Source: Natronobacterium texcoconense
GTDB taxonomy: Archaea > Halobacteriota > Halobacteria > Halobacteriales > Natrialbaceae
Reading direction: 5' to 3'
NCBI RefSeq assembly: GCF_900104065.1
Contig: NZ_FNLC01000002.1
Coordinates: 230,995 to 294,994 of the forward strand
DNA: 64,000 nucleotides
Shown here: positions 2,811 through 48,381 of the stretch, piece after piece
How the letters are laid out: each line of letters starts with the position of its first letter
Position numbering within the stretch: position 1 is the stretch's first letter
The notes under the pieces: generated by a model
What the model saw: the letters and a program-made list of their open reading frames with translations, nothing else
The model's database searches: none
Told to the model about the DNA's origin: nothing
Translations under genes and position numbers: made by a program

Positions 2811-2818
2811 TTTGTTAT
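2811..2818 (-). promoter_or_regulatory. ATAACAAA promoter-like element
   Basis: On the minus strand the sequence reads ATAACAAAGC. It ends 25 bases before the ATG of the phosphatase-like gene, the position of an archaeal TATA box for a leaderless mRNA. The same octamer recurs in front of other glycan and regulator genes in this window. Confidence 0.55.
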
Positions 2819-2957
2819 GCGAGCGTTTTGGAACTGTAGGCCGGGTCTTCCGTGGACGATCCGCGATGCCCGAATCTGTAGCCGGTCAGCGCCGGTGTCA
2901 GTAAGCGTTGGCTGTCGTTCGTTCGATGCCCGTACAGGGCATAAAAGAGCCGGGAAG

Positions 2958-4640
2958 TCACTCCTCGGCGGTCGAGAGCAGGTCCGATCGCACCTCGTCC
3001 GCGAGTGCGTAGGACCGTTCACCCTGCCGGTCGAGAACCGATTCGGTACGCAGCTCCGAGAGTAGCCCCTGGACCGCGACGGTCGACCGGTCGACGCGAC
3101 TCGCGATCGACTCCGCGTCGAGGGGTTCGTCGCGCGCGAGAACAGCGAGGACCCGTCTGGCCGTCTCGACCGTACACTGTGACTGCTCGCTCGCTCGCTC
3201 GAGTCGATCACCGAGCGGACTCGACGCCATCGCTTTCACGTGTGATTCGTCGATGGTCGAGCGGTCCCGTTCCGCCTCTACCACTTCGTCGTCCTCGTCG
3301 GACTCCTCGTTCGGCCACGTGTAGCCGAACTCCAGAGAGTCGCCGCCGACCTCGATGATGGTCTCCTCGTCGTCTTCGCCGTCCTCGAGGTCGCGGACAC
3401 GTTCGCGCAACCGCTCGTTTTCCTCGCGGAGCCGATCGATCGTCTCCGATCGGGACTCGAGTTTGTCCTCGAGTCTGGCGGCGTACTCCTCGTACTCTTC
3501 GAGTTCCGCCTCGAGTTCGTCCCGTTCTTCCTCGAGATCGACGATCTCCTCGTGTAGCTGACGGACGTCCTCACCACCGGGGCCACCCTCGGGGAGTTGC
3601 GTCTGGATCGTCTCCGGGCGGGTCAACGCGTCTGCCATCTGTTTGGCCGCACTCGAGACGTCCCGTGCTGACTCGAGTTCGTCCTCCAGGGTCTCGATAC
3701 GTTTCTCTTTCTTCTCGAGTTCGTTCTCGAGTTCGAGCACTCGGTCCTGTTCGCGTTCCTTGCGTTCGGAGATCTTCTCGAGGTCGCCGACCAGGGAGTC
3801 CGAGACGGACTTGAGGTCGGGCCGCTCGAAGTCGTCGAGTCCGGGTGTCGCGCCGGCGTCGAAGGTGCGCTTGCGGCGAAACTGGACCTTCCGGACGTCG
3901 GCCTCGTCCCAGTCGGTCTGGACGAACGCCTGGCCGTCGTCCAGATCCGAGACGAGTTCCGAGTACTCGGTATCGATGATCCGGCCGACGACTTTCGTGT
4001 CGTTGTTCCAGGTCAGGCGGTGCCAGACGAGCCAGTTCGCTTGCGTGATGAAGTCCTTCTTGACGTCTGCTGGCCGCTGGCTGATTCCGAGGATGCCAAG
4101 TCCGTGCTTGCGGCCGCGTTTCCCGATCTTGATCAGCAGTTTGCCGGTTTCGCCGACGCCGCCGCCCTCGGGGATGTACTCGTGGACCTCCTCGACCACC
4201 AGCAGGAACGGCTTCTTCAGCTTCTTCTCCTTGACGAACAGCTGGCGGGCGACCTTCCGGAGCAGTTCGTCCGCGACCTCCTCGTCGAGATAGCCCGAAA
4301 CGTCGAGAATGATCGGGACGTTCTCCTCCAGGGCGAGTTCGGCCATCTGTTCTGCGTGCTCGGGACCGATCTGGATGTCACACTCCTCGTCGGCTCCCGC
4401 GTGGAGCATCTCGTACTCCTCTTTGAGCCCGTAGTACTCGCCGTCGGTGTCGACGATCAACAGCGGGAAGCCAGCCTCGAGCAACTCTTCGGCGATGACG
4501 GAAGCCGTATTCGACTTGCCCGACCCGGACTTGCCGGTCACGAATCCGCGACCGGTCAGCAGTTCGACGACCGGCAGCCACAGGTCGTCTCCAGCGTCCG
4601 TCTCCCCGACGAGAATCTCCCGCTGGGTGTCGTCGCTCAC
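2958..4640 (-). CDS. HerA/FtsK-type ATPase (DUF87) with coiled coil and C-terminal winged helix
   Basis: The protein has 560 residues. The Walker A motif GKSGSGKS is at residues 36-43 and Walker B (FLLVVEEVHEY) at about 145-155, followed by the GISQRP sensor near 185. This is the helicase HerA central-domain arrangement. Residues 280-420 form a long charged coiled coil. Residues 485-555 look like a winged helix (VETARRVLAVLARDEPLD...IASRVDRSTVAVQGLL). It is probably a DNA-tethered or oligomeric ATPase. The coiled coil and winged helix set it apart from the canonical HerA partnered with NurA, and no NurA is next to it. The GTG at 4640 is chosen: it has GAGGTG eight bases upstream and overlaps the stop of a 16-codon micro-ORF. 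Confidence 0.85.
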   Translation of the reverse strand: MSDDTQREILVGETDAGDDLWLPVVELLTGRGFVTGKSGSGKSNTASVIAEELLEAGFPLLIVDTDGEYYGLKEEYEMLHAGADEECDIQIGPEHAEQMAELALEENVPIILDVSGYLDEEVADELLRKVARQLFVKEKKLKKPFLLVVEEVHEYIPEGGGVGETGKLLIKIGKRGRKHGLGILGISQRPADVKKDFITQANWLVWHRLTWNNDTKVVGRIIDTEYSELVSDLDDGQAFVQTDWDEADVRKVQFRRKRTFDAGATPGLDDFERPDLKSVSDSLVGDLEKISERKEREQDRVLELENELEKKEKRIETLEDELESARDVSSAAKQMADALTRPETIQTQLPEGGPGGEDVRQLHEEIVDLEEERDELEAELEEYEEYAARLEDKLESRSETIDRLREENERLRERVRDLEDGEDDEETIIEVGGDSLEFGYTWPNEESDEDDEVVEAERDRSTIDESHVKAMASSPLGDRLERASEQSQCTVETARRVLAVLARDEPLDAESIASRVDRSTVAVQGLLSELRTESVLDRQGERSYALADEVRSDLLSTAEE

Positions 4641-4687
4641 CGGTCGGTCACCTCGAGCGCGAGTTCGGTCGCGACCGCGTCGTTCAT
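4637..4687 (-). CDS. 16-residue leaderless micro-ORF overlapping the HerA-like GTG start
   Basis: ATG at 4687 opens 16 codons (MNDAVATELALEVTDR) and its TGA shares bases with the GTG start of the HerA-like gene (GTGA). An AT-rich box (GAATATT on the plus strand, about 4718-4724) sits roughly 31 bases upstream of the ATG, as expected for a leaderless start. It may act as a translational-coupling leader rather than make a functional peptide. Coding status is inferred. Confidence 0.3.
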   Translation of the reverse strand: MNDAVATELALEVTDR

Positions 4688-4825
4688 ACTATCTGTACAG
4701 TTCGGATACGATACCTTGAATATTGGCCTCGACCGCTCGGGTGGTCGTCGCTCGAGACCGTGGCGGCGACCGCGATATGACCGTCGGGAATAGAGTTAAT
4801 GTTCTGGAGTATTTATTTTCCTAAC

Positions 4826-5437: not shown

Positions 5438-5457
5438 GCGCAGTCCAAATAGCCAGT

Positions 5458-6894: not shown

Positions 6895-8844
6895 CTACAC
6901 TGTCTCGCTCGAGTCGTCGCTAGTCTGTTCTCGCTCTACGGTCTGCTCGCGAACGGTCATTCCCTTCCGGCCGAGATGCTGTAACTGCCGTCGTGCGAAC
7001 TCCTCCTCTCGAGTACCACGCGTCGCGAGCACGTAGACGAGCGCGCCGCCTGCGGGTCGCATCGTTCGGCCGGCCCGCTGGGTGCCCTGCCGTCTCGAGC
7101 CGCCCAACCCCGAGGCGACGATGGCCAGATCCGCGGTGGGGAGGTCGATCCCCTCGTCGCCGACGCGCGAAACGATCAGCAGGTCGCGTTCGTCGCGGCG
7201 GAACTCCTCGAGCAGCCGTCGTCGTTCGTGATGAGGCGTCTCGCCGCTGAGGAAGGGGACGTCGAGTGCGTCGGCGAGTTCCCGTCCCTGGTCGAGGTAG
7301 TCGACGAAGACGAGCGCCTTCGCGTCGTGGTGCTCTCGCAACAGGAATCGTACTTCGTCGATCTTCCCGCGGTTCTCCGCGGCGATCCGGTACCGTTCCC
7401 GGCCGTCGGCCGACGAGTAGGCGTTTCGCTGTTCGTCGTCGCCCCACGGCACGTACCGGATCTCGAGTTCGGGTTCGGCGACGAAGCCGGCCTCGAAGAG
7501 GGCCTGCCAGTCGGTGCCGATCGGCGGGCCGACGAGCGTGAAGATCTCGGTCTGCCGGTCGTCCTCGCGGATCGGGCTCGCGGAAAGTCCCAGGCGGTGC
7601 TGGGACTGCAGGTGCGTGCTGCGGCGGTAGACGTCCGATGGAACGTGCTGGCACTCGTCGAAGACGACGAGTCCCCACTCGCGGTCGTCGAACAGCGAGC
7701 GGTGGCGATCCATGCCGGCGATCTGGTAGGTCGCGATCGTCACCGGCCGGACGTTCTTCTGGCCGCCGTGGTACTGGCCGATCTGGTGTGGTCCGAGGCT
7801 GGTGTACTCCTCGATCGTCTCGGCCCACTGGCGTGCGAGGTCGCGACTCGGCACCAGGACGAGCGTCTCGCCGCCGACCTCTGCCATCGCGCCCATTGCG
7901 GCGACGGTCTTGCCGCTGCCCGGCGGCCCGACGAAGACGCCCTCCCCAGCCTCGGCGAAGCGATCGACCCAGGTTTGCTGGTAGTCACGCAGAGAGACCT
8001 CGAGGTCGACGTCGAGCGCCTCGCCCGAATCCAGATCGCGATGGTCCTGGACGGGGTAGCCCGCCTCGTAGAGGATTCGCTTGATCGCAGCCTCGGCCCC
8101 CTCGCGAACCCAGTCCTCGGTGTCGGAGATCGGCGCGTGGACGTGTTCCTCGTCGAGTTTCTGCCGGGCGACGTTACCCATCACTTCGGGCGTCTGAGCC
8201 TCGAGGACGGTGTAGCCGTCCTCGTGGGTGTAGAGCCGGAACTGGCGGGCGCGATCCCACTGGCTGCGGACCCACTCCTCGAGTCGCTCGGATCGCTGGC
8301 CCAACGCCTGACGCATCGTGCGTTCGAGGTCGTCGAAATCCTCGTGCGGGGCCTGCCAGACGTCCTCCGGTCGCACGACGTAGCGATACCCCTTCTCGCC
8401 GTTGCCGTCCGCGAGGTGGGCGAACTGAGACAGTTGCGCGCGCGTGAACTGGGTCGGCCGGTCGAGGACGATCTCGCGACGTTTCGGGAAGACGACGACG
8501 CGCTCTTTTTCGGTCAGGTCCTCGAGCTCCGAGGGGTACCAGACCACTGGGTCGTTCGAGACGGAGAGACGCTGGACTGCGCCACGGTCGGCGAGTTCCT
8601 CGAGTTCCCCGCTGACGTCCTCCTGGGGGCGATCGAGGGCGCGGGCGACGCCGTCGGCGGTCAGCACCGGTCGGCCTGCCTGCTGGCAGGCGTCGTGGAA
8701 TCGGTCGATAGACAGCCGATCGGACTCCCCGTCTGCCGTACTGTCGGGCGACGACTCGTTGCCTCGAGCAGGTGGCGTCTCGTCGTCCGTGTGGTTCGTT
8801 TCTCGACCACCGTTCCCGGCGTTCGAGGATCGTTCGTCGGTCAC
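6895..8844 (-). CDS. XPB/Rad25-like superfamily 2 DNA helicase
   Basis: The protein has 649 residues from a GTG start. After a low-complexity acidic N-terminus and a winged-helix-like region (residues about 45-110) it has the SF2 helicase core: LRDYQQTWVDRF Q-like motif, Walker A GPPGSGKT at 306-312, DECQ (motif II) at about 396-399, SASP (motif III) at 421-424, and the arginine-finger motif QRAGRTMRP near the end. This is the layout of archaeal XPB, a repair/transcription-linked translocase. The nuclease partner Bax1 often found beside archaeal XPB is absent here. The GTG at 8844 is used because the upstream in-frame part is Arg-rich and unlike protein, but the start is not certain. It converges on the DUF234 gene. 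Confidence 0.8.
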   Translation of the reverse strand: MTDERSSNAGNGGRETNHTDDETPPARGNESSPDSTADGESDRLSIDRFHDACQQAGRPVLTADGVARALDRPQEDVSGELEELADRGAVQRLSVSNDPVVWYPSELEDLTEKERVVVFPKRREIVLDRPTQFTRAQLSQFAHLADGNGEKGYRYVVRPEDVWQAPHEDFDDLERTMRQALGQRSERLEEWVRSQWDRARQFRLYTHEDGYTVLEAQTPEVMGNVARQKLDEEHVHAPISDTEDWVREGAEAAIKRILYEAGYPVQDHRDLDSGEALDVDLEVSLRDYQQTWVDRFAEAGEGVFVGPPGSGKTVAAMGAMAEVGGETLVLVPSRDLARQWAETIEEYTSLGPHQIGQYHGGQKNVRPVTIATYQIAGMDRHRSLFDDREWGLVVFDECQHVPSDVYRRSTHLQSQHRLGLSASPIREDDRQTEIFTLVGPPIGTDWQALFEAGFVAEPELEIRYVPWGDDEQRNAYSSADGRERYRIAAENRGKIDEVRFLLREHHDAKALVFVDYLDQGRELADALDVPFLSGETPHHERRRLLEEFRRDERDLLIVSRVGDEGIDLPTADLAIVASGLGGSRRQGTQRAGRTMRPAGGALVYVLATRGTREEEFARRQLQHLGRKGMTVREQTVEREQTSDDSSETV

Positions 8845-9007
8845 TGGCGGGCCGTAACGTCGGTGCAGGTAAACCGATTTCGCTCGCGGGAGCCGTGGCC
8901 GGCGAACCGCTTTCGCCCGGACTACTGCCACACTTCCGACGAACGAACACGTTCGGAGATGGGTTCAAGTATCACTCGTTCCAACCGACTGGAAATAGCC
9001 AGCGTGT

Positions 9008-9016
9008 TTATATATC
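9008..9016 (+). promoter_or_regulatory. TATA box of the transducer gene
   Basis: TTTATATAT ends about 20 bases before the ATG at 9037, matching a strong haloarchaeal TATA box with leaderless start. Confidence 0.65.
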
Positions 9017-9036
9017 GATCGTCGGATTGCTTTCGT

Positions 9037-10767
9037 ATGGCAACTGCTTCGAGCGACCGGGCCGACGTCGCCGACGCCGGGTTCGGTCCGATCCGCAACC
9101 GGTACGAATCGGTCCTGTGGGGGACGATGGACCGGCTGGGAGTTACCGAGAGTATCGAACGGAAGATGTTCGCAGCGGTCGTTCTCCAGTTTCTCTCGAC
9201 GATCGCCGTGTTCGCGCTGCCACTCGTCTTTCTCGGCCCGCGCGAAGCGTTCGCGGTGTTCCCGACCGCACAGATCGTCCTCACCGCCGTCGTCTTCCTC
9301 CTCGCCGTCGTCGCGTTCGTCAACACGCTGTTGATCGCCCGGAGAGACCTCATCGAACCGCTGCTGGAGATCAACACGGTCGCAAACGACATCGCTGACG
9401 GGCAACTCGAGATGCAGCCGGTACAGCGACGACAGCGCGACGAAGTCGGCGAACTCCAGCACTCCGTCGCCGAGATGCACACTTCGCTGACGACTGTCGC
9501 GAGCCAGGCCGACGCGCTCGCACGCGAAGAGTTCGACGCCGACGTCCTCGAGGAGACGGTCCCTGGGGAGTTCGGCGAGTCCCTGGAGGAGATGCAAACC
9601 GGACTCGAGAACCGCATCGAGGAACTCGAGGAGAGTCGCGAACGAATCGAGCGCCAGCGTGAGGAAGTCGAACGGCGGAACGCGGAACTCGAGGCCGACG
9701 CCGAACGCTGTCGAGCGGTGTTACGGCAGTGTGCGGACGGCGATTTCACACACCGGGTCGAGGTCGAAAGCGACCACGAGGCGATGGTCGAGATCGCCGA
9801 CGGACTGAACGCGATGCTCGACGACGTCGCGGATACCCTCCACAGCATCCAGGCGCTCGCCGACGAGGTCGACGAGGTCGGAACGGAGGTTTCGACGAGC
9901 GTCGCCGAGATGGAGACGGCAAGCGCAGAGGTGAGCGAGTCGTCCGAGGAGATTTCTATCGCGACCGACGAACAGAACGACCGATTCGAGGAAGTACTCG
10001 GCGAGATGAGCGACCTCTCGGCGACGATCGAGGAGATCGCGTCGACGGCCGATGGCGTCGCCGACGTCTCGAGTCGGGCCGCGGATAACGCCCTGGACGG
10101 CCGGGAAACCGCGAGCGACGCGCTCGAGGAACTCGATCGGCTCCAGCGACGATCTAGCGCAGTCGTCGACCAGATCGAAGCGCTCGACGAGGAACTGACC
10201 GAAGTGACCGAAATCGTCACGCTGATCGACGAGATCGCCGAGGAGACGAACCTGCTCGCTGTCAACGCCTCGATCGAGGCTGCTCGTGCGACCGGGGACG
10301 GCAGCCGGTTCGCCGTCGTCGCGAGCGAGATCAAGTCGCTGGCCGAGGAAACCGGCGACGCGACCGACGACATCGATTCGATGGTCACCGACGTCCAGAC
10401 GTCGGCCCAGGACGCCGTCGAGGAGATCAGCGCCATGCAACAGGACGTCGTCGACGGAACCGAGACGATCGAAGAGAGCCTCGAGGTCCTAGAAGAGATC
10501 GCCGACGACGTCCAGGAGGCAAACGAGGGCGTCCAGTCGATCAACGAGGCGACCGACGAACAGGCTCACTCGAGTCAGCAAGTCGTGACGATGGTCGACG
10601 AGGCGACCGAACAGAGCGAACAGACGCTCCAGGAGACCAGCAGCGTCGCCGCGGCCGCCGAGGAACAGACCGCCACGATCTCGGAAATTTCCCACGCAGC
10701 CAGGTCGCTATCGGAGACGGCCGCCGAACTGAACGGCCAGCTCGAGGAGTTCACCGTCGAAGACTGA
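9037..10767 (+). CDS. Methyl-accepting chemotaxis/transducer protein (Htr)
   Basis: The protein has 576 residues. Two membrane helices at about 46-67 and 77-101 are joined by only about ten residues, so there is no extracellular sensor domain. They are followed by HAMP-like segments (about 102-155 and 225-275) and a coiled-coil signalling domain. The hairpin tip at 397-420 contains the conserved EIAEETNLLAVNASIEAARA. The C-terminal region is Glu/Gln rich with sites suitable for methylation. It should signal to CheA/CheW, which are not in this window. Having no periplasmic domain suggests it senses the membrane, cytoplasm or a partner protein, like the Htr transducers that pair with sensory rhodopsins, though no rhodopsin gene is nearby. 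An upstream TATA box supports the ATG. Confidence 0.92.
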   Translation: MATASSDRADVADAGFGPIRNRYESVLWGTMDRLGVTESIERKMFAAVVLQFLSTIAVFALPLVFLGPREAFAVFPTAQIVLTAVVFLLAVVAFVNTLLIARRDLIEPLLEINTVANDIADGQLEMQPVQRRQRDEVGELQHSVAEMHTSLTTVASQADALAREEFDADVLEETVPGEFGESLEEMQTGLENRIEELEESRERIERQREEVERRNAELEADAERCRAVLRQCADGDFTHRVEVESDHEAMVEIADGLNAMLDDVADTLHSIQALADEVDEVGTEVSTSVAEMETASAEVSESSEEISIATDEQNDRFEEVLGEMSDLSATIEEIASTADGVADVSSRAADNALDGRETASDALEELDRLQRRSSAVVDQIEALDEELTEVTEIVTLIDEIAEETNLLAVNASIEAARATGDGSRFAVVASEIKSLAEETGDATDDIDSMVTDVQTSAQDAVEEISAMQQDVVDGTETIEESLEVLEEIADDVQEANEGVQSINEATDEQAHSSQQVVTMVDEATEQSEQTLQETSSVAAAAEEQTATISEISHAARSLSETAAELNGQLEEFTVED

Positions 10768-10845: not shown

Positions 10846-11022
10846 ATGTTCCGTGCCATCCTGCCCGAGGGACAGATCCTGTGTGATCGATACGAGCACG
10901 TCGAGAACGGTCTCGAACTATACGACGAGGAGGATACGCTCGTTGCGTTCGTTCCCTACGCCAACCTTCACGCGCTGGTCGACGAGGAAGTCTACGGCGA
11001 AGACGATCGGTCGATCATGTAG
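10846..11022 (+). CDS. Small conserved-looking acidic protein, function unknown
   Basis: There are 58 codons after a well-placed TATA-like box. The product begins MFRAILPEGQILCDRYEHVE and continues with YDEEDTLVAFVPYANLHALV, a pattern of short beta strands with acidic turns. That resembles the small single-domain proteins often kept in haloarchaea. It is too short to assign a role. Its stop overlaps the stop of the convergent TFB gene by eight bases, so the two transcripts can form a sense/antisense pair at their 3' ends. Confidence 0.6.
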   Translation: MFRAILPEGQILCDRYEHVENGLELYDEEDTLVAFVPYANLHALVDEEVYGEDDRSIM

Positions 11023-11986
11023 CCGGCGTCTGGTCGATCGCGTCCAGCTGTTCCCGGTATCTGTTTCTGACGGTGACGACGGTCGTCTGTGCGGTTTCGG
11101 CGACCGCGCGTTGCGGGATCGTCTCGTCACAGAGCAACCCAGCCGCGTAGATCGCCGCCGCCGCGAATCCGGTCGGTGACTTCCCGGAGTGAAGCCCCTG
11201 CTCGGTCGTCTCGTCGATGATCTCGATCGCTTTCGTCTCGACGTCTTTGTCGATATCCAGTTCCGAGCAAAACCGGGGCACGAACTGGCGCGGGTTCGTC
11301 GGCTCGAGATTGATGCCGAGTTCGTCCGCGATGTACCGGTACGTTCGGCCGATTTCGCGCTGGTCGACACGGGAGACGGCAGTTACTTCCTCGAGGCTGC
11401 GCGGAATGTCTTCTTTGCGACAGGCAGTGTAGAGGGCGCTGGTCGCGACGCCTTCGATCGACCGGCCACGGATGAGATCCTGCTGGAGCGCACGGCGATA
11501 GATGACACTCGCGGTTTCTTTGACCGGGTTCGGGACGCCGAGTGCGCTGACCATCCGGTCGATCTCCGAGAGCGCGTACTTGAGATTGCGTTCGCCGGCG
11601 TTTTTCGTCCGGATTCGCTCCTGCCAGACCCGGAGCCGGTGGATCTGGCCGTGTTTGTCGGCCGACATCGACCGGCCGTTGGCGTCCTTGTTCCGCCAGT
11701 CGATCGTCGTCGTCAGCCCACGGTCGTGCATCGACTGGGTCAGGGGCGCACCGACTCGAGAGAGTTCGTCGTGTTCCTGTGCGTTGAACGCACGCCACTC
11801 GGGGCCGTAATCGATAGGATCTTCTGTTAAGACGAGCCCACACTCGTCACAGACTCGCTCGCCGCGGTCGGGGTCGTGGACGATCGTGTCGGTTTCACAG
11901 TCGGGACACAGCTCCGTTCCTCGTTCCCGTTCCTGTTCTCGTTCGCTGGACTCACTTCTGGCATGATCGATGATGGGCTGTGTCAT
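11015..11986 (-). CDS. tfb: Transcription initiation factor IIB (TFB)
   Basis: The protein has 323 residues, the normal TFB length. The N-terminal zinc ribbon has C27-x2-C30 and C46-x2-C49, followed by the B-reader region (WRAFNAQEHDELSRVGAP). Then come two cyclin-like repeats (about 125-210 and 220-310) with GRSIEGVATSALYTACR and GKSPTGFAAAAIYAAGLL, the paired repeat signatures. Haloarchaea carry several TFBs with different promoter preferences, and this may be one of the paralogues. The ATG at 11986 is chosen at the first MTQP; the open frame upstream is not protein-like. The gene converges with a small ORF. Confidence 0.93.
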   Translation of the reverse strand: MTQPIIDHARSESSEREQERERGTELCPDCETDTIVHDPDRGERVCDECGLVLTEDPIDYGPEWRAFNAQEHDELSRVGAPLTQSMHDRGLTTTIDWRNKDANGRSMSADKHGQIHRLRVWQERIRTKNAGERNLKYALSEIDRMVSALGVPNPVKETASVIYRRALQQDLIRGRSIEGVATSALYTACRKEDIPRSLEEVTAVSRVDQREIGRTYRYIADELGINLEPTNPRQFVPRFCSELDIDKDVETKAIEIIDETTEQGLHSGKSPTGFAAAAIYAAGLLCDETIPQRAVAETAQTTVVTVRNRYREQLDAIDQTPAT

Positions 11987-12711
11987 CCGTAGCGGAGACA
12001 ATTCTGCGGTCACTGTAAGGGGCTCACATGGTTTCATAGGAAACCCCGACTTACTATTGCAGGTCGAAAGGAGAGTTCGACGCAGGCCTGACCCGTCTCC
12101 CGGGTCGTCGGGCCCGCGCCGACGACGTGTCCCATCGGTCGTCTCCGGGTGAAGCGACCGCGAGTGATCGCTCCGACCCATCAATTTCTATGGGAACGCG
12201 ACACATGAATCGTGACGATTGTTACGCCCTTCCCCGGGTGTAAATCATCAGTTCATCGCGTAAATTCTCCTTTCGATACCAAACTGTCGCTCGAATTTAT
12301 GTCGCTGGAGTCGAAGGTCGGACTAGTGACGAGTTGCCGATCCGTTCATCGACGTTCACCGGCGTATCGCTGGATTCGTCCCGATCCCGAAGTACGATAC
12401 AAATACGCGGCCCAAATCGGACGATACCAGCGATCTACGAACGCCACCCTCGACCACCAGCGATCGCGCCATCGGCCGCTATCGAGAGCTACTGGACGAA
12501 GCCGTCCCGTACTCACTTTGCAGCCGATGCGAAACGTGGCCGTGCTTAAGAGTGTCTCTGTTGGTGTACAACTTGGTGTGTCAATCGTGACTGCGAATCG
12601 CCGTCTGGAAGTACAGCGGTCGCTGCCGGGGTCTCTGTCCGGTAGCGTTCTCGACCGCAAATGCTGGCGGAGTCGGGTTCGAACTGCCCTATCCGCCGGA
12701 GGGACACGATA
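11987..12711. other. 725-base region without a convincing gene
   Basis: Open frames here (for example 12212-12712) lack haloarchaeal acidic composition and recognisable motifs. The stretch holds the upstream regions of TFB (leftward) and of the DUF7344 gene (rightward). An AT-rich patch at about 12180-12300 could be a promoter but no box stands out. Confidence 0.5.
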
Positions 12712-13311
12712 ATGTCCTCGATCGATACCTCACTCCCCGACGAAATCGCATCGTCGGTCGGCGAGTCCGAGGACGACGAACGCCTCTCGAAGGACGTCAT
12801 TTTCGAACTCCTCAAGAACCGCCGACGTCGAGAAGTCCTCGCTTACTTGCTCGAAGCCGAGGAAACGGTCACGCTCGGTGAACTCGCCGAGCAGATCGCT
12901 GCCTGGGAGAACGACACGGACGTAAACGCCCTGAGTTCCGACCAGCGAAAACGGGTATACGTCGCCCTCTACCAGACTCATCTTCCCAAGATGGACGACG
13001 CCGGCATCGTCGAATACGATCAGGACCGGGGCTTGATCTCGCTGTCGGACAACGCCGACCTCCTGATGATGTATCTCGATACCGACTCGCATCAACAGGA
13101 CCGATGGGACCGCTGGTACGGCGTACTGAGCGCGGTCGGCATCGTCCTCGTCGGCGGGGCGTTCGTTGGCGTTCCGCTGCTGGCTGCGATTCCGACGTTC
13201 GGAATCGCCGCCGCCGTCCTCGTCGCACTCTTTGGACTCTCGGTCGCTCACGCCGTGACGAACCGAAAGCAAGAACGCAACGTCAACGGCAAACTGTCTC
13301 GGATCGAGTAA
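12712..13311 (+). CDS. DUF7344-type winged-helix protein with two C-terminal membrane helices
   Basis: The protein has 199 residues. Residues 25-110 form the domain shared with the genes at 41425 and 44949: NRRRREVLAYL, a LAEQIAAWENDTD helix, then QRKRVYVALYQTHLPKMDDAGIVEYD. This is a winged-helix core ending in the dimer-like helix typical of DUF7344. Residues about 135-185 give two hydrophobic helices. It is therefore probably a membrane-tethered DNA-binding protein with the helix-turn-helix in the cytoplasm. The ATG at 12712 starts the acidic N-terminus; the frame open before it is not used. Target genes are unknown. Confidence 0.8.
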   Translation: MSSIDTSLPDEIASSVGESEDDERLSKDVIFELLKNRRRREVLAYLLEAEETVTLGELAEQIAAWENDTDVNALSSDQRKRVYVALYQTHLPKMDDAGIVEYDQDRGLISLSDNADLLMMYLDTDSHQQDRWDRWYGVLSAVGIVLVGGAFVGVPLLAAIPTFGIAAAVLVALFGLSVAHAVTNRKQERNVNGKLSRIE

Positions 13312-19021: not shown

Positions 19022-19029
19022 TTTGTTAT
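19022..19029 (-). promoter_or_regulatory. ATAACAAA element upstream of the membrane protein gene
   Basis: Reads TATAACAAACC on the minus strand, 73 bases before the ATG at 18948. If used as a promoter core it would give a leader of about 45 bases. Confidence 0.4.
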
Positions 19030-19162
19030 ATGGATCCTATCGTTCGCGACTGACGCGGTCGTTTTCAGGGACGATCGATCGACGCTCCGGCTACTCCCGG
19101 GCGCGCGTTCGTTCGATCAGAGTACGATCTGCGTACACTCCGACTGCCGACGTCGATATAGC

Positions 19163-19262: not shown

Positions 19263-20073
19263 GGAAGTTGATCTTCGGACAGACGTGGCGCATCAACTCA
19301 TTCACAAGCCGTTGGATCTGCTGTTTCATGAGACCGTCCGGGTCGAGTTTCTCCTCGGACTCGCCTGGATTCATGTTGCCATTCTTGCTCCACAGATAGT
19401 GCATCTCGACGAGGTGGGTGTGTCAGCGGCAGTAGGCTTCGATCTCGTCGGCGACGTCCATGATGAACTTCTCCGTTCGAGCGAGGAATCGACGATTCGC
19501 ACACCGGGTGATCGTCGTCTGGTGAGGTGTCTCCGGCGTGTGGTACACCTGGAGGGCAAGATACTCGTTTTCGTCACCGAGGTCCGGTTCGAAGCCCAGT
19601 GTGAAGGCAATCGCGGGGTTGCGCTCGAGGAAGTCCGCGAGGTCTTGATGGTAGCGTATTCCACGCAGTTCGGCGTAGATGAACGACCGGAGCATTACCT
19701 CGAATTCGTAGATTTCTGGGCGGTCATCCCAGTAGGGATCGGTGAATTTCTCGAGTCGGATATTCGCGTTCGTCACGGCATTGGCCACGTCGATATCGTC
19801 GTTGAGATCGTCGATAATTTCGTGGGAGGTGATGAGAGCAGCTTGATGGGTAGAGTGTTTTGGATCAGCTGGATCAGCAGAGTAGAAACAATCATATGGA
19901 TTTTCCCCAGGCTTTCGAGAGACGTTTTCGATCTCAATCGAGACGAGAAGATTGCGGTTCCGTTCCTCCCATGAATCAGTATCATTAGAGATTGATTCAG
20001 TAGAAAGAGAGGCGTTTTGTTCCGGGAACCCGTTTGTCATCACCCATACTTTCCTGGACTCGGATAAAATCAT
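19262..20073 (-). pseudogene. Truncated DDE transposase with an in-frame stop
   Basis: The N-terminal 216 codons are intact and end in DVADEIEAYCR, where a TGA at 19423 interrupts. The same frame continues beyond it (HTHLVEMHYLWSKNGN... LMRHVCPKINFQRR) until the sequence switches abruptly to host membrane-protein code near 19262. LRSFIYAELRGIRYHQDLA and FLERNPAIAFTLGF are the N-terminal DUF772-like features of IS4/IS5-superfamily transposases. The catalytic DDE half is missing, so it cannot be active. ATG could be 20073 or 20040. Confidence 0.75.
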
Positions 20074-20288
20074 ACACTACCAGGACGAAATTATGGCTTG
20101 TTACCGTTGATCGGGGTATTCAACAACACGTGGCTCCTCTTCCGGCTCTTTACCCTGTTGAATATAGGCACAGGGCGCGAATATCGTACGTTATCTGGCT
20201 TGACTATGCCATATCGAACACCATTATGTTAGACATCACCTATCAATACATCCATTAGATATAAATTGGTTTCACAGTACATAGAATC

Positions 20289-21072: not shown

Positions 21073-21232
21073 ATACCTCCTAAAGAGCAAAATGTCGCGA
21101 GAAATCTGAGTCATATACTCTTCCGTTTCCACTTCTTTGATTTGACAAACTGTTCCACCATCGTTTAGTGATTCAACACGTCCAAGTTAAGCAAACGAAT
21201 TAAAACCAAATGAGAATCGCCCTCATAGCATC

Positions 21233-22332: not shown

Positions 22333-22429
22333 CCAACCTAATTATCCACATAGTTTCGTGAATCCCTTGGAGTCAAGTCTCAAGGCACTCGGTCTAGCCG
22401 CTTGCAGATGGTGTTGCGGATGTATCAGA

Positions 22430-24502: not shown

Positions 24503-24537
24503 TTTACAGTAGTTCTGATTTTTGCTGCGTTATTTAG

Positions 24538-29877: not shown

Positions 29878-29885
29878 TTTGTTAT
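29878..29885 (-). promoter_or_regulatory. ATAACAAA element before the second phosphatase-like gene
   Basis: Reads CATAACAAAGCG on the minus strand, ending 43 bases before the ATG at 29834, giving an expected leader of about 18 bases. Confidence 0.5.
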
Positions 29886-30163
29886 GGGGAGTGTTCAGCA
29901 CGTTCAACGAACTGATCCGTCCGCATTCGGTACCCTTACCCCAACCCCAGATCGACGAACGGGCTGTTCGGTCCCGTTACCGTCGGCCGAGGCGAAAATA
30001 ACCGAAATCGGAGTGACTGGCACTCGAACCAGTCACGGCGAACGACCGTCGAGACGCGTACTCGCCCGTCCCGCCCTGCACCCGGACCATACGATCCGAA
30101 ACGGCGGACGCCGGGACGATCGACGACGACGTTCGGTGCCGCCTTGCTATCGAAAGGCGATCA

Positions 30164-30171
30164 ATAACAAA
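30164..30171 (+). promoter_or_regulatory. ATAACAAA element before the deacetylase gene
   Basis: ATAACAAAAC ends 25 bases before an ATG at 30197 that opens a 9-codon micro-ORF overlapping the GTG start of the deacetylase gene. The spacing matches a TATA box whose transcript starts at that ATG. Confidence 0.5.
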
Positions 30172-31157: not shown

Positions 31158-31339
31158 GACGGATTGCTGGAACGATTTACCGGCACGACCGCTGTCCAGG
31201 TCGCGGTTGCGACGAAAACGACTTACAGTAAACCGTATGAGTTCCGACAGTCCGTACGAAACTGAGTGAAGGCGGTAGGGTATCCGATCAATTCGTCCAC
31301 GGGATCGACTACTCGAGCCCGCTCGTCTGTACGACGCCG

Positions 31340-31347
31340 ATAACAAA
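31340..31347 (+). promoter_or_regulatory. ATAACAAA element before the oxidoreductase operon
   Basis: ATAACAAAGC ends 27 bases before the ATG at 31375, the position of a TATA box for a leaderless transcript. Confidence 0.55.
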
Positions 31348-34390: not shown

Positions 34391-34430
34391 TCGGTCGAAA
34401 CAGGTCAACTGCGCTGCCTGTACGTTTCCT

Positions 34431-34438
34431 ATTACAAA
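34431..34438 (+). promoter_or_regulatory. ATTACAAA variant of the glycan promoter element
   Basis: ATTACAAAGC ends 26 bases before the ATG at 34465, one base different from ATAACAAA and at the same TATA-box position. Confidence 0.5.
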
Positions 34439-40387: not shown

Positions 40388-40971
40388 GCGATCTGGTTCG
40401 GTCCCTCGAGTGGTTCGGGAAGTTCCTCGATCGTCGCCGGTGCCCCGACTGCGAGACTGTCGGCCGGCACGTCGTCCGTGACGACGGCTCCAGCCGCGAC
40501 GAACGCGTTCTCGCCGATCGTCACGCCCGGCAGAATCGTCGCGTTCGCCCCGACCGATGCACCCGACTCGAGGGTCGGCCCCTCGAGGTCGGCCTCGGTC
40601 CGGATCGGATACTCGTCGTTGGTCAGAACTGCACCGGGGCCGACGAAGACGTTGCTCTCGATGGTCGTCTCGGTCGGGACGTAGACGTTCGTCTGGAGGC
40701 TGACGTGGGAGCCGATCGTCGTCTGGCCGTCGATGACTGTCTTCGTGCCGACGAGGACGTCGTCACCGATCTCCGTCCCTTCCCGTACCAGGACGTCGTG
40801 GCCCGTCGTGAACTCGTCGCCGATCGTTACGTCGCCGTAGATGATAGAACCGTCTCTGATCGTCGCTCCGTCGCCGATTCGCGTCGGTTCGTCGAACTCG
40901 CCGTGGCCGACCGTCGCGTCGTCGGCGATCGTACACTTCGTTCCCCGGACGACGGGTTGCTGGCTACTCAT
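40384..40971 (-). CDS. Left-handed beta-helix acetyltransferase, WbpD/WlbB-like
   Basis: The protein has 195 residues built of hexapeptide repeats: TIADDATVGHGEF, IGDGATIRDGSIIYGDVTIG, TKTVIDGQTTIGSHVSLQTN, ESNVFVGPGAVLTND, VGANATILPGVTIGENAFVA and GAVVTDDVPADSLAVGAPA. It fits the UDP-2-acetamido-3-amino-2,3-dideoxy-glucuronate N-acetyltransferase group. It is the first gene of the operon. An upstream ATAACAAA element lies 171 bases before the ATG (leader about 145 bases if used). Confidence 0.88.
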   Translation of the reverse strand: MSSQQPVVRGTKCTIADDATVGHGEFDEPTRIGDGATIRDGSIIYGDVTIGDEFTTGHDVLVREGTEIGDDVLVGTKTVIDGQTTIGSHVSLQTNVYVPTETTIESNVFVGPGAVLTNDEYPIRTEADLEGPTLESGASVGANATILPGVTIGENAFVAAGAVVTDDVPADSLAVGAPATIEELPEPLEGPNQIA

Positions 40972-41142
40972 CCGCGTTCACCTCCGTTCGTCCGCGACTG
41001 GACTGTCGATCGACGCGCGCGAGGGGACGACGGGACATCCGTCGTCCGTCCCTGAACTCGTAATCGTCGTCGTAGTTGGCGCTGTGTCATCGGTTACTCG
41101 ATACCCGCGTGGGAATCGTCCTGATACAGCCGGTAACGAGGT

Positions 41143-41150
41143 TTTGTTAT
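41143..41150 (-). promoter_or_regulatory. ATAACAAA element before the diacetamido-sugar operon
   Basis: Reads GATAACAAAACC on the minus strand, 171 bases before the ATG at 40971. No other start is convincing in between, so a long leader is implied if it drives this operon. Confidence 0.45.
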
Positions 41151-41424
41151 CCTCGTCCTGAGGAATGCGTAGCCGCGAACTACAGGGACCGCGATCGATT
41201 GGCGCCAATTTCCACAGGAGGTGACGTCACTGGCCCAGTTGGGCCGCTCGATCGTTCCCAGAACCCGAAACGTCGATAGAGACGTCATTCACGGCCGCTA
41301 ACCGGTATAATTCGATTTCGACCGGGTAGCCGAGCGATAGTAAAGGGAGAGTGTCTGGCACTCGGTGGTGTGAGGTATTCGAACACCCCCGATCGGCGTT
41401 CGATTCGGGATCGCGAGGGCACTC
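41151..41424. other. Intergenic region before the second DUF7344 gene
   Basis: No gene is supported. A minus-strand frame (41094-41288) lacks protein character. This region separates two divergent transcripts. Confidence 0.4.
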
Positions 41425-41955
41425 ATGTCTGAACACGAACTCACTCAGGCCGAACTGTTCGACGTGTTCAGTAACGCTCGCAGGCGACGGACGGTCCAGT
41501 ACCTGAAACGACGTGGCGGTAGCTGCGATCTCGCACCGCTCGTCGAACAGGTCGCCGCCTGGGAGAACGATACCGATCCGGACGACGTCACGCGAACGCA
41601 ACGACGTCGCGTCTACATCTCCCTGTACCAGACCCACCTGCCGATGCTCGAGGACCACGGGATCGTCGACTGGGATCCCGACGGCCACCACATCGACCTC
41701 CTCCCGAACGAGGAGGTATTCGAGCCGTACCTCGACCGGCAACTCGGTGGGGACAGGGCATGGCACCGGGCGTACCTGACCGTCACGGCACTCGGCGCGG
41801 CGGCGTTCGCCGCTGCCTGGCTCACGCTAGGCTCGGCGAGCGTCACACCGCTCGCCGTCGTCGCGCTCTGTGCCGTCGTCCTCGCGATCGCAGTCGTACA
41901 GTACGTCTCGCGACAACCAGGGCTGGAGCTACCGTTCGGCATCGCGAGTCGATAA
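41425..41955 (+). CDS. DUF7344-type winged-helix protein with two C-terminal membrane helices
   Basis: The protein has 176 residues. It keeps NARRRRTVQYLK, LVEQVAAWENDTDPDDV, QRRRVYISLYQTHLPMLEDHG and VDWDPDGHHIDL, the domain shared with the copies at 12712 and 44949. Residues about 118-160 hold two hydrophobic helices. A membrane-anchored DNA-binding regulator of the glycan locus is a reasonable inference from its place between the sugar operon and the DUF1616/PadR pair. Confidence 0.82.
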   Translation: MSEHELTQAELFDVFSNARRRRTVQYLKRRGGSCDLAPLVEQVAAWENDTDPDDVTRTQRRRVYISLYQTHLPMLEDHGIVDWDPDGHHIDLLPNEEVFEPYLDRQLGGDRAWHRAYLTVTALGAAAFAAAWLTLGSASVTPLAVVALCAVVLAIAVVQYVSRQPGLELPFGIASR

Positions 41956-42054: not shown

Positions 42055-43053
42055 TCAGTCTTCGGCAGCGTCCTCGGTTACGGTCAGCCAGAAGTAGGTG
42101 TCTTCCTCGGCGTTCTCGTTCGTCGGCTCGAGTGGCGGGTCGTCGTCGTACAGCAAGAGGCTGACTCTGACCGTGTCACCGTCGTCCGCGGTCGGCGTGA
42201 CGTCGTACTCGCCGGTTCCGGTTCCGCCGGCCGAGACGCTGCCGTCGACTTCCCCGAGTTCGGTTCGGTCGACGATCTCGCCGTTCTCTACGTGTTGTTG
42301 CTGGACGACGACCGTGTACTCGGCCGGTTCGCGTTCGTGGTTCTCGATCGCAATGGTGACCGGCACCGACTCGCCGGGTTCGACCTCGTCGGGCAGTTCG
42401 CCCGCGACGAGGTCGCCGTCGTCGGTCTCGGAGTAGAGCCCGAGTTCGGTGAATCCGCCGGTCGCAGCCGGCGCGATAACCCCGACGAGAAGCGCACCGC
42501 AGGCAACTGCGACCGCGAGGACGAGAATCGTCGACGACGCCGAAACCGTGCTGGGAGCACGTCGAACGCGTCCGATCCAGGACGAAACCGACACTACGAA
42601 CCGGTCGGCTTCCGGCGTCCGAAGCCGTCGAACGGCACCGAGCTGTGCCGAGACGACGGTAATGAGAGCCAGCGCCCCGGCTCCCGACTCTGCCCCGATC
42701 CCAAACTCGGTGACTGCAAGCACGATCGCAACGAGCGGCACGAACGCGATCGATAACGCGAGCGAGAGCCCGAGCCGTTCGACGGCATCGATCCCTCGAG
42801 GGTGGGTTTCGGCAGTCGTCGCTGCCGTCTCGCGGGCGTTTCGCTCGGCTGCCGGGAACAACACCGACACGAAGGCATAGCCTGGGAGGAACAACGCGAG
42901 TACGAACGTCGCGGTCAGTCGGAGGCCGCTTCCAGCCTCGAGCGACGTCACGACGACGTAGGCGACGAGCGCTGCGAGCGAGACGACCGCGATATCGGAC
43001 GGATACTTGCGGACGGACGCGAGTCGCGTCCGCGTGGCTGTTGCAAAACTCAT
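42055..43053 (-). CDS. DUF1616 membrane protein
   Basis: The protein has 332 residues. Two pairs of hydrophobic helices (about 20-60, 100-150) and one more near 175-200 precede an extracellular beta-rich domain with VPVTIAIENHEREPAEYTVV and FWLTVTED, the layout of DUF1616. The family is common in archaeal surface-glycan loci with unknown role; a link to polysaccharide export or assembly is only contextual. The ATG at 43053 (MSFATATRTRL) is preferred over the GTG at 43092. It lies directly downstream of the PadR gene with an ATAACAAA element between. Confidence 0.8.
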   Translation of the reverse strand: MSFATATRTRLASVRKYPSDIAVVSLAALVAYVVVTSLEAGSGLRLTATFVLALFLPGYAFVSVLFPAAERNARETAATTAETHPRGIDAVERLGLSLALSIAFVPLVAIVLAVTEFGIGAESGAGALALITVVSAQLGAVRRLRTPEADRFVVSVSSWIGRVRRAPSTVSASSTILVLAVAVACGALLVGVIAPAATGGFTELGLYSETDDGDLVAGELPDEVEPGESVPVTIAIENHEREPAEYTVVVQQQHVENGEIVDRTELGEVDGSVSAGGTGTGEYDVTPTADDGDTVRVSLLLYDDDPPLEPTNENAEEDTYFWLTVTEDAAED

Positions 43054-43138: not shown

Positions 43139-43146
43139 TTTGTTAT
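43139..43146 (-). promoter_or_regulatory. ATAACAAA element before the DUF1616 gene
   Basis: Reads CATAACAAAACA on the minus strand, 85 bases before the ATG at 43053 and 46 bases before the alternative GTG at 43092. Confidence 0.45.
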
Positions 43147-43183
43147 GGCCGTGCTATACAGCCTGCTTCACAGTAAGACGGAG

Positions 43184-43459
43184 TCAGAAATCGACGTACT
43201 GTTCCTCCCACTCGCGTCGCTCGTCGATCCGCTGGCGGCCGGCTTCCGTAATCGCGTAGTAGTTCGTCCGCCTGTCGAGTTGCCCCTTCTCGACCAGCTC
43301 CTTGTTGACGAGCGTGTCGAGATTCGGGTACAGACGCCCGTGATTGATCTCCGAACTGTAGTACTTCTCGACTTCGTCTTTGACGGTCTGTCCCGACGGC
43401 CGATCCGCCCCTGCGATCACGTACAGTAAATCTCGCTGGAAGCCGGTCAGATCGTGCAT
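43184..43459 (-). CDS. PadR-family transcriptional regulator
   Basis: The protein has 91 residues. FQRDLLYVIAGADRPSGQTV, then the PadR helix-turn-helix SSEINHGRLYPNLDTLVNKEL and the wing RRTNYYAITEAGRQRI with the C-terminal ERREWEEQYV. It is a dimeric winged-helix repressor type. Its own promoter region carries an ATAACAAA element, and the next gene (DUF1616) has one as well. It may be the regulator or a member of the ATAACAAA set. Confidence 0.9.
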   Translation of the reverse strand: MHDLTGFQRDLLYVIAGADRPSGQTVKDEVEKYYSSEINHGRLYPNLDTLVNKELVEKGQLDRRTNYYAITEAGRQRIDERREWEEQYVDF

Positions 43460-43494: not shown

Positions 43495-43502
43495 TTTGTT
43501 AT
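43495..43502 (-). promoter_or_regulatory. ATAACAAA element before the PadR gene
   Basis: Reads GATAACAAACAT on the minus strand, ending 35 bases before the ATG at 43459, giving a leader of about 10 bases. Confidence 0.5.
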
Positions 43503-43688
43503 CCGTATCGTACATCCTCGTTAGGTATTCTTTCATAATTTCGGCCAGAAACTAAATCATCTGTTCTCGTGATAATCACGAAGGGCGAACTATCGATCCG
43601 GCCGAAAACGTACTCCCGCCCAAACCGAATCGAGACAATAGACGAGTATACGGCCCACTCGACCGCAGCAGGTCTCCGCAGTCGCCGG

Positions 43689-44460: not shown

Positions 44461-44469
44461 CCCCTCGGT

Positions 44470-44948: not shown

Positions 44949-45464
44949 ATGTCCGTTCAGACGAATCGATCCAGTTCGCTGGCGGAAAGCGAGGTTTTCC
45001 ACATCCTCGGCAACGATAGACGACGTGCGATCGTACAGTTACTCGCTGAGGAGTCCGGACAGGTCGACGTCTCCGACGTCGCAAACGAGATCGCGGCGAC
45101 GGAGTCGGAGACCGATACGGACGCCTCGTCAGTTCCGAACAACCTCTACAAGAGCGTCTACGTCTCCCTCCAGCAGACGCATCTCCCCCAGCTCGAGGAA
45201 GACGACGTGATCGAGTATGACGCCGACACGAAGACGATCTATCCTGGGCCGAACTTCGAGGACGTCCTCACGTACGTCGACGGACACGACGACGGTGCCC
45301 CGGAAATTCTGCAGTTTCACTTCGTCGCCTGTGTCCTCGGACTCGCCGTGATCGCGCTTGCGGGGTTCGACGTCCCGATCCTCTCGTCGGTGGACCCGGT
45401 GCTGTGGAGCGTCCTCGTGTTGCTCGTCATCGGCGCGAGCAGCCTGTACCGGATCCTCGAGTGA
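44949..45464 (+). CDS. DUF7344-type winged-helix protein with two C-terminal membrane helices
   Basis: The protein has 171 residues. The shared domain is visible as LGNDRRRAIVQLLAEES, VANEIAATESETDTDASS and KSVYVSLQQTHLPQLEEDDV with IEYDADTKTIYPG. Residues about 128-165 contain two hydrophobic helices (FVACVLGLAVIALAGF; SVLVLLVIGASSLYRIL). Compared with the copies at 12712 and 41425 the WEND block is replaced by ESET, so this one has diverged more. It converges on the acidic repeat protein gene. Confidence 0.8.
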   Translation: MSVQTNRSSSLAESEVFHILGNDRRRAIVQLLAEESGQVDVSDVANEIAATESETDTDASSVPNNLYKSVYVSLQQTHLPQLEEDDVIEYDADTKTIYPGPNFEDVLTYVDGHDDGAPEILQFHFVACVLGLAVIALAGFDVPILSSVDPVLWSVLVLLVIGASSLYRILE

Positions 45465-47625: not shown

Positions 47626-47793
47626 TATCGTGCCCTACGGGCATCGAAGAATCGTGGGTTACGTCGCATAAACCGACGTAACGATTTCGCCGGGAAACTG
47701 GATACTACGGCGGTGTAGCCGCCCAACGCTGGTACTGGTTATCGGTGAAACAGTCCCCTCCAAAAACTGGTAACGTCGAATTGATCACGTGGC

Positions 47794-48291
47794 TCACTGT
47801 TCGTTCTGTGGCTGTTCCGGCGGTTTCGAGGCCGTCGGCTCGTTTCCCGGCAGACAGACGAGATTCTCCCGTCCGAGGCGTAGTTTCGTGATCTGGCCTT
47901 CCTCCTCGAGTTCGGTGAGCAATCGACTTACTTTCGCTTTCGACCAGTCGACCGAGTCGACGATCCGGGACTGTTTCATTCGTCCGCCGTTCTCGCGGAT
48001 GAGTTGGCGAACCGTCTCCCGGTCCGTCATGTATTCGTCGGGCGCCGTTTCCGGTTCGGAGCCGAGCGACCGTCGACCCCGGAACCGGTTTCGAATCGCG
48101 AGAATTCCGCCGAGTAACACCAGCCCGATAACGCCAACTAGCGCCGCGAGATGGGGGGCGCCCCCGAGCTGGAGCAACGAGTCTCGCCCTGGCGCCGTGA
48201 TGATGCTGGAGTCGAGTCCAGCGATCGTCCCGTCGCTCGTCGAAAGAGTGAGCGCGCTGACACTGCACGAATGTCGGAAGTAAGTACTCAT
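47794..48291 (-). CDS. Membrane-anchored winged-helix regulator (DUF7343-like)
   Basis: The protein has 165 residues. An extracytoplasmic N-terminal part of about 45 residues, one transmembrane helix (LAALVGVIGLVLLGGILAI, about 46-66) and a cytoplasmic wHTH: RETVRQLIRENGGRMKQSRI, DWSKAKVSRLLTELEEEGQI and KLRLGRENLVCLPG. This is the form of haloarchaeal DUF7343 membrane regulators, which could transmit an envelope signal to promoters. The ATG at 48291 is preferred; a GTG at 48321 is possible. It has an ATAACAAA element upstream and stands next to the acidic repeat protein. Confidence 0.82.
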   Translation of the reverse strand: MSTYFRHSCSVSALTLSTSDGTIAGLDSSIITAPGRDSLLQLGGAPHLAALVGVIGLVLLGGILAIRNRFRGRRSLGSEPETAPDEYMTDRETVRQLIRENGGRMKQSRIVDSVDWSKAKVSRLLTELEEEGQITKLRLGRENLVCLPGNEPTASKPPEQPQNEQ

Positions 48292-48373
48292 GTGATCTCG
48301 ATTGGGGGGTCGTTCGCTCACTCGTCTCTGTACCGTCGTGACCGTTCCACAAAGTGTTTTTTATAATTCATGT

Positions 48374-48381
48374 TTTGTTAT
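48374..48381 (-). promoter_or_regulatory. ATAACAAA element before the membrane-anchored regulator
   Basis: Reads AATAACAAAACA on the minus strand, 82 bases before the ATG at 48291. A second AT-rich box, TTTTTTATAA, lies nearer the gene (about 48354-48363), so which is the functional core is open. Confidence 0.4.

Follow-up and report, generated by a model that had tools for sequence, protein, structure and literature searches.

Haloarchaea carry many paralogues of the TATA-binding protein (TBP), transcription factor B (TFB) and winged-helix proteins, and to our knowledge few haloarchaeal regulons have a known DNA code. The element described here was found in a 64,000-nucleotide stretch of the genome of Natronobacterium texcoconense (contig NZ_FNLC01000002.1, positions 230,995 to 294,994 of the forward strand; the whole stretch is referred to as the window), where the octamer ATAACAAA recurs before genes for cell-surface glycans. 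This octamer is almost certainly the core of a dedicated promoter class for these genes, such as the initial annotation had proposed for glycan and regulator genes; it stands at the TATA position and is conserved before the same genes. The element resembles the canonical haloarchaeal promoter, which consists of a B-recognition element (BRE) and a TATA box, in that its core lies at the same distance from the start codon, with a short leader or none in some genes, but ATAACAAA contains a C and misfits TTWT, has no adjacent CGAAA, and is instead accompanied by an A at -9 and by phased TA steps (box motifs from the accessible part of PMC4983044).

The best candidate regulator encoded in the window, here called DUF7344-TM, has a winged-helix domain of the DUF7344 family and two C-terminal hydrophobic helices. 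ArnR and ArnR1 of Sulfolobus acidocaldarius, to which DUF7344-TM may be comparable, have an N-terminal helix-turn-helix and two C-terminal membrane helices, regulate surface structures from sites upstream of the core promoter and form oligomers; they differ in that their sites are inverted repeats, TCGAC-N5-GTCGA, within -43 to -84 of promoters that keep BRE and TATA box, and ArnR also has HAMP and sensor parts, the comparison with DUF7344-TM being one of architecture (PMC6396743, in the sections available). EarA of Methanococcus maripaludis is a winged-helix activator with short repeated sites (four of TACATA) that probably helps to recruit TFB, but it regulates archaella, binds upstream of the BRE of its promoter and has no octamer at the TATA position (PMC6396743, PMC13286277, as far as the accessible text of both extends). 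CsmR, a regulator of the haloarchaeon Haloferax volcanii, likewise has its site close to the promoter, near the TATA box; this site, however, is the semi-palindrome TATCA-N4-TGATA, beside canonical promoter elements (PMC13286277, accessible portion). Loci bound by the histone HpyA share an A/T dinucleotide periodicity of about 10.4 bp with the element but yielded no sequence motif, coding and intergenic regions being bound alike, and no genome-wide phasing was detected in halophile model species (PMC10128011, in the part available). In Haloarcula, an acidic exopolysaccharide requires two glycosyltransferases encoded in a polysaccharide cluster, and both adhesion and low-salt growth are affected by them (PMC5467301, in the part available). 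The element is undescribed in the literature searched, most subscription papers being outside reach; text matches to ATAACAAA together with archaea and promoter concerned, by title, dCas9 interference and a bacterial deaminase, and no paper on DUF7344 was found in the literature searched.

Nine copies of ATAACAAA had been listed in the window by the initial annotation and all nine sit where it placed them, against 0.14 expected from dinucleotide shuffles (largest count, 1), in agreement with its rough estimate of their rarity by chance. It had also described them as pointing toward genes: none of the nine falls inside a called gene, and each is followed by a called gene on its own strand, gene starts here and below having been placed by a purpose-written codon-usage gene caller that leaves some of them uncertain. 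The genome-wide count that it had suggested gave 27 copies in this genome (G000; 4.01 Mb, nine contigs, with the window at C2:230995-294994) versus 11 of the reversed word. Thirteen of the 27 fall within 94 kb that take in the window and 33 kb beyond it (C2:233805-327849), each outside called genes and followed by a same-strand called gene; of the remaining 14, one is clearly intragenic and several have AT-rich surroundings. The bipartite pattern H-A-N8-ATAACAAA occurs 18 times, 12 of them in the same 94 kb, versus once for the reversed pattern. Far from the cluster, the octamer and its upstream A are kept in G000 (C2:788507, L018) and in the sister genome G001 (C1:3011018, L045), with no called gene close downstream at either place. 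The sites in the window are as follows, where G001, G002 and G003 are sister genomes.

2811..2828, minus strand: element AAACGCTCGC-ATAACAAA, 25 nt before a type I phosphodiesterase-like gene (1157-2785, minus); octamer kept in G003.
19022..19039, minus strand: element TAGGATCCAT-ATAACAAA, 73 nt before the gene at 17155-18948 (minus); kept in G002 and G003, flanks diverged.
29878..29895, minus strand: element AACACTCCCC-ATAACAAA, 43 nt before a second phosphodiesterase-like gene (28242-29834, minus); kept in G001-G003.
30154..30171, plus strand: element AAGGCGATCA-ATAACAAA, before a polysaccharide deacetylase gene (30207-31157, plus); kept in G001-G003.
31330..31347, plus strand: element TACGACGCCG-ATAACAAA, 27 nt before a Gfo/Idh gene (31375, plus); kept in G001-G003.
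34421..34438, plus strand: variant element TACGTTTCCT-ATTACAAA, 26 nt before a DUF354 gene (34465, plus); kept in G001, G002 and G003.
41143..41160, minus strand: element CAGGACGAGG-ATAACAAA, 171 nt before an acetyltransferase/aminotransferase/Gfo-Idh operon (40971, minus).
41327..41344, plus strand: variant element TAGCCGAGCG-ATAGTAAA, 80 nt before the DUF7344-TM gene at 41425 (plus).
43139..43156, minus strand: element TAGCACGGCC-ATAACAAA, 85 nt before a DUF1616 gene (42055-43053, minus); octamer kept in G001-G003.
43495..43512, minus strand: element TACGATACGG-ATAACAAA, 35 nt before a PadR gene (43184-43459, minus).
48374..48381, minus strand: exact octamer in AT-rich DNA with G at -9; probably no element.
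49192..49209, minus strand: variant element TACGTGAGTG-ATAACTAT, before a small-protein gene (48812-49165, minus); kept in G001-G003.
51912..51929, minus strand: variant element TAAGCGAGCC-ATACTAAA, 25 nt before an NAD-dependent epimerase gene (50924-51886, minus); kept in G001-G003.

The elements at 29878 and 30154 form a divergent pair. A spacing of 25-27 bases between octamer end and start codon, earlier given for five places, was found at 2811 (25), 31340 (27), 34431 (26) and 51912 (25) but not at 30164, where it is 35 bases: the ATG 25 bases past this octamer is out of frame with the deacetylase open reading frame (ORF), whose first listed start is the GTG at 30207. The octamer at 48374, 196 bases before its gene, is probably spurious; besides its G at -9 and AT-rich surroundings, it is not kept exactly in the sister genomes. 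The variants at 34431 (ATTACAAA) and 51912 (ATACTAAA) are kept with T at -10 and A at -9 in three sister genomes. Two further variants beyond those listed earlier are at 49192 (minus), which also keeps its octamer variant and T-10/A-9 in three sister genomes, and at 41337 (plus), before a DUF7344 gene; the A at -9 and the phased TA steps described below were likewise absent from the earlier description. The gene at 17155-18948 has a weak DUF6541 match under the Pfam cut-off, and the small protein encoded at 48812-49165 has no Pfam match. The first bases of the 171-base leader of the acetyltransferase operon (window 40972-41142) are well kept in the genus, its length varying elsewhere, and a search of 40900-41500 against Rfam gave no match at E values up to 1.

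Conservation before orthologues, proposed earlier as a check, was found: eight of the nine window octamers precede the same genes in at least one of G001, G002 and G003, mostly within diverged flanks, and the variants at 34431, 41337, 49192 and 51912 also recur before the same genes in related genomes. Beyond the genus, a scan of named genomes for the cluster acetyltransferase gave 65 loci, 27 of them haloarchaeal (including Natrinema, Natronorubrum, Haloterrigena, Natrialba, Haladaptatus and Halomicrobium), to which the named-locus counts refer, and the octamer with its upstream A was found at 26 of these 27. Judging by these loci, the family that we number f1 appears to be Natrialbaceae and part of f17 Haladaptatus. 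Clusters of f17, f7, f5 and f4 have 6-12 distinct sites each in the stretches read, some on small contigs (48 kb in G096 of f5, 121 kb in G102 of f4 and 153 kb in G082 of f7). By sequence comparison, the same element is a mark of glycan clusters in five haloarchaeal families (f1, f17, f7, f5 and f4). Across the 97 of 117 genomes that are at least 90% complete, H-A-N8-ATAACAAA outnumbers the reversed pattern in f17 (444/77), f7 (115/26), f1 (206/54) and f4 (90/43) and weakly in f6 (68/41) and f14 (54/37), with no clear excess in f12 (39/29), f5 (73/61) and f10 (26/33). Targets shared between families include the phosphodiesterase-like proteins, deacetylase, DUF354, DUF1616, the acetyltransferase operon and a DUF6541-like membrane protein, together with proteins that we take, from their sequence starts, to be GlmS and a FemAB-like protein. 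Among 32 PadR-type loci read, 18 have the octamer upstream (14 best matches in f1, two in f5 and two further paralogues in G000), and the other 14, from other families, have none upstream, several of them having ordinary AT-rich boxes. At the two ends of the 121-kb contig G102:C3 (L127 and L131), identical octamer sites are found together with a DUF7344 gene, which may reflect the terminal overlap of a circular replicon or a duplication. The glycan clusters of G094, G112 and G035 (L115-L120) are flanked on either side by distinct gene sets, presumably archaellin-type and CheW-like genes on one side and succinate dehydrogenase-type genes on the other, to judge by protein starts.

The anatomy of the element was derived from twelve genomes, in which 41 octamer-rich stretches gave 112 distinct sites (38 in f1, 43 in f17 and 31 in f4, f5 and f7), leaving out L131, which repeats part of G102, L142, and L140 and L141, which comprise four octamers of G082, three called inside genes and one not. 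An A is found exactly nine bases upstream of the octamer in 111 of the 112 sites, window 48374 being the sole exception, and G never occurs at -10, where T is the commonest base except in f17, which has mostly C; in 42 of 43 f17 sites a G follows directly 3' of the octamer. Among octamers with one mismatch, A at -9 together with a base other than G at -10 occurs at 31 of the 39 that lie in promoters, 8 of the 27 within genes and 31 of the 65 elsewhere. Within 160 kb around the window, HA-N8-ATWVYWAA has 21 matches, 18 in promoters and none inside genes, versus 5-7 matches, four or five in promoters, when the spacer is altered by one or two bases. The placement at the TATA position had been proposed earlier and agrees with octamer-free control promoters of the same loci (sets of 66, 52 and 78): their AT content peaks at -34 to -26 from the ATG, whereas the nearest octamers end 25-29 bases before the start and none of 34 ends less than 25 bases before it. 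Since the AT peak of the controls coincides with the position of the octamer, the octamer stands in the place of the TATA box, and no TTWT-type box preceded by a CGAAA-type BRE was seen at the element when the site sequences were read by eye. The box near -20 is directional (TAC 20 versus 3 for its mirror GTA; CTA 16 versus 3), also at sites outside the clusters (TAC 7 versus 0), while boxes from -31 upstream have no strand preference. We read the octamer, -9 and -20 as probable sequence-specific contacts and the boxes farther upstream as structural ones (bending or wrapping).

TA steps upstream of the octamer are helically phased. The discovery set comprised 63 sites from six genomes of five families, L142 included and sites without A at -9 excluded by design, and TA peaks at -10, -20, -31, -41, -52 and -64. 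With the -10 position removed, the periodogram peaks at 10.5 bp with a power of 68.5, compared with 15.0 for the 99% level and 18.3 for the maximum of the null, and none of 1000 random rotations reached the observed power. CG steps upstream are periodic as well. The signal spans about -70 to -12 in one phase (approximately six helical turns) and is absent farther upstream; a weak downstream signal (p 0.018) includes the base before the ATG and is not claimed. No TA phasing was detected in 66 control promoters aligned on their AT boxes or in 180 aligned on the ATG. When the phase was fixed from the discovery set, where 76 of 115 TA steps are in phase (0.28 expected here and in all sets below), 18 of 28 were in phase at ten f17 sites away from clusters (p 6e-5). 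Five G000 sites outside the cluster gave 9 of 16 (p 0.015), orthologous clusters 35 of 50 and 31 of 48, the named loci 56 of 71 and the PadR loci 28 of 51; single genomes have little power in this test. At 28 octamers without the upstream A no phasing was found (14 of 68 in phase). The unaligned histogram of lags between TA pairs is less clear (88 pairs at lags of 8-13 in controls, 46 at element sites), and therefore only the phase-locked test is claimed.

A full promoter of this class has ATAACAAA or a close variant at the TATA position, a near-invariant A one helical turn upstream (H-A-N8-octamer), often a directional CTAC box near -20, and phased TA steps extending to about -65. Based on these features, we propose that a sequence-specific factor would contact the DNA from one side over about seven turns, and that the bound factor, likeliest an oligomer of DUF7344-TM, would bring TFB and TBP to a promoter that lacks a canonical TATA box. 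Through DUF7344-TM, expression of the glycan genes could respond directly to the state of the surface or membrane. The relevant regulator genes of the window are listed below.

41425..41955, plus strand: DUF7344-TM, winged-helix domain and two C-terminal hydrophobic helices (Pfam PF24035, 1.2e-27); best candidate regulator.
12712..13311, plus strand: second DUF7344-TM gene, divergent from the TFB gene.
44949..45464, plus strand: third DUF7344 gene of the window.
43184..43459, minus strand: PadR regulator gene, element target in f1 and G096; rival candidate.
11015..11986, minus strand: TFB paralogue, a general transcription factor B (Pfam TFIIB, 2.1e-44), confined to f1 among the matches listed; rival candidate.

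That DUF7344-TM, whose PF24035 domain Pfam labels as of unknown function, binds the element has about an even chance of being right. It is the only regulator family in all ten clusters compared, in which BLAST grouping found three protein groups throughout, DUF7344-TM and two sugar enzymes, and DUF7344 is present in all eight clusters outside f1. Its gene is divergent from the acetyltransferase gene in 25 of the 27 named loci, and TA-N8-ATAGTAAAG precedes it in all 20 f1-type named loci and at window 41327-41344, suggesting that DUF7344-TM is apparently autoregulated. In three f17 genomes at least ten element places fall in the 500 bp preceding a DUF7344 domain versus 0.43 expected, seven on the same strand and three divergent, largely at the same three genes per genome; this proximity test covered the 34 element places listed for each f17 genome, the full set of 27 G000 octamers, and 23-40 of 24-43 DUF7344 matches, with second fragments and sub-threshold rows omitted. 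Across the 97 genomes the element excess rises with the number of DUF7344 genes (rho 0.75; partial on genome size, 0.60; with f1 and f17 removed, 0.47), the partial correlations for PadR and TFB being -0.12 and 0.02, among the matches listed. The AlphaFold2 model of DUF7344-TM (176 aa, mean pLDDT 78) has, over residues 11-90 (pLDDT about 87-96), the winged-helix order H-H-E-H-H-E-E.

A number of observations weigh against this assignment. The correlation ignores shared ancestry, and its DUF7344 counts, taken from the matches listed, have an upper limit near 29. The family is large, with 24-43 matches per genome in four genomes, which makes its presence in clusters weak evidence when taken alone, and the two sugar-enzyme groups likewise occur in ten of ten clusters. 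Genomes of f14 have about 15 DUF7344 genes each, yet a weak element excess (54 versus 37); only one of the 27 octamers of G000 lies within 500 bp of one of its 26 DUF7344 domains (divergent; 0.09 expected); and no element was found in the region before the second DUF7344-TM gene (12712). The two long hydrophobic helices are modelled at lower confidence, Foldseek gave only weak winged-helix matches (TubR best at E 0.0098, followed by MarR-type proteins), and three PadR genes of G000, belonging to another regulator family, also carry the element. Moreover, the relaxed octamer pattern is not enriched genome-wide in G000 (90 versus 100 reversed), so variants are claimed here only where they are conserved. 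As a whole, a dedicated class read by DUF7344-TM is the best explanation that the sequences suggest, and it may be right or wrong with roughly equal probability. If DUF7344-TM is the binder, activation is somewhat more probable than repression, because no canonical TATA box is left beneath the element, a preference that is argued rather than shown. Rather unlikely, in our judgement, is a more specific version in which the promoter DNA would run along the inner face of the membrane, gripped on one side by arrayed winged-helix proteins that are tethered to the membrane, one contact per turn over about seven turns, the array taking over the function of the TATA box and the state of the surface switching the glycan genes directly.

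Other readers had been suggested by the initial annotation and may be compared with DUF7344-TM. A special TBP does not agree with G094, which has 38 bipartite sites but a single TBP gene (two adjacent TBP repeats), and a TBP paralogue as reader was rejected on this ground. PadR was rejected as a general reader since it is absent from the clusters of G094, G112, G035, G045, G106, G102 and G082; among the eight clusters outside f1 the one match is in G096 (f5), and PadR gene number does not track the element. The proposal of a membrane-anchored regulator of the DUF7343 family rested on the doubtful site 48374, and this protein was dropped as evidence because that site is without A at -9 and lies in AT-rich DNA. 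A TFB, the other half of the suggested TFB/TBP pair, is encoded in the window, but no orthologue of it was found outside f1 among the matches listed. We consider it unlikely that the octamer is a core element specific to one TFB paralogue, forming a TFB-specific promoter class. This would account for a TATA position without a canonical TATA box and would fit a TFB gene that lies in the window, is divergent from a DUF7344-TM gene in all 14 f1 loci and is, among the matches listed, about 23-36 kb from the best PadR match in nine of 14 f1 genomes, with another TFB on the cluster-bearing 48-kb contig of G096. Among the matches listed in 117 genomes, however, orthologues of the window TFB (83-100% identity) are restricted to f1, with at most 69% elsewhere, so it cannot serve f17, f7, f4 or f5, whose clusters use the same element; seven of the eight clusters outside f1 have no clear TFB (one weak match, of 27%, is in G045), and the element does not follow TFB gene number among the matches listed. 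Contacts at -9, at -20 and farther upstream would also exceed a BRE in extent. The TFB/DUF7344-TM pair (window 11986-12712; f1 L167-L180) is divergent also where it is far from the glycan cluster, and a separate conserved box, approximately GAAACCATGT..CCCCTTACA, is present in the promoter of the TFB gene.

The helical phasing raises the question of whether a halophile histone of the HpyA type, or another chromatin protein, wraps the upstream 55-60 bp as a nucleosome-like positioning signal while another factor reads the octamer. TA steps phased at 10.5 bp over about 60 bp, periodic CG steps and the lack of strand preference from -31 on are what such wrapping would give, and HpyA-bound Halobacterium loci have a 10.4-bp periodicity that their genome lacks, but HstA of Haloferax has a different motif (PMC10128011, accessible part); the phasing keeps to a single sequence class, with none at the other promoters in these loci, the box at -20 has a direction, and we find this explanation quite improbable. 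Still less probable is that the element is a degenerate TATA box overlapped by the operator of a DUF7344 or PadR repressor. Genes of both families carry the element in their own promoters, as autorepressors do, but a canonical TATA box would be expected under a repressor site and none is seen in the site sequences, and the PadR version also conflicts with its absence from most clusters outside f1 and its lack of tracking. An artefact of chance or base composition, for which one could cite the octamers in AT-rich or coding DNA elsewhere in G000 and the 11 copies of the reversed word, has a practically negligible probability: it is refuted by nine copies where 0.14 are expected, by conservation across families and by the near-invariant A at -9.

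Other features of the window include a low G+C island at 19500-25000 (44-53% in 1-kb windows, versus 62% for the whole window), which is probably acquired DNA; no gene was called between 19788 and 25357, and one ORF with a FilR1 middle domain is present (20476-21072, plus strand). A large protein with HAMP and MCP signalling domains is encoded within the glycan region (7231-10767).

If DUF7344-TM is confirmed to be membrane-bound, the system described here would be a direct membrane-to-promoter switch in archaea, and it may provide a first candidate role for the large family DUF7344. Nucleosome-like helical phasing is here tied to one promoter class in halophiles, and H-A-N8-ATAACAAA with its phased TA steps provides an exact, testable code for a surface-glycan regulon across several haloarchaeal families.

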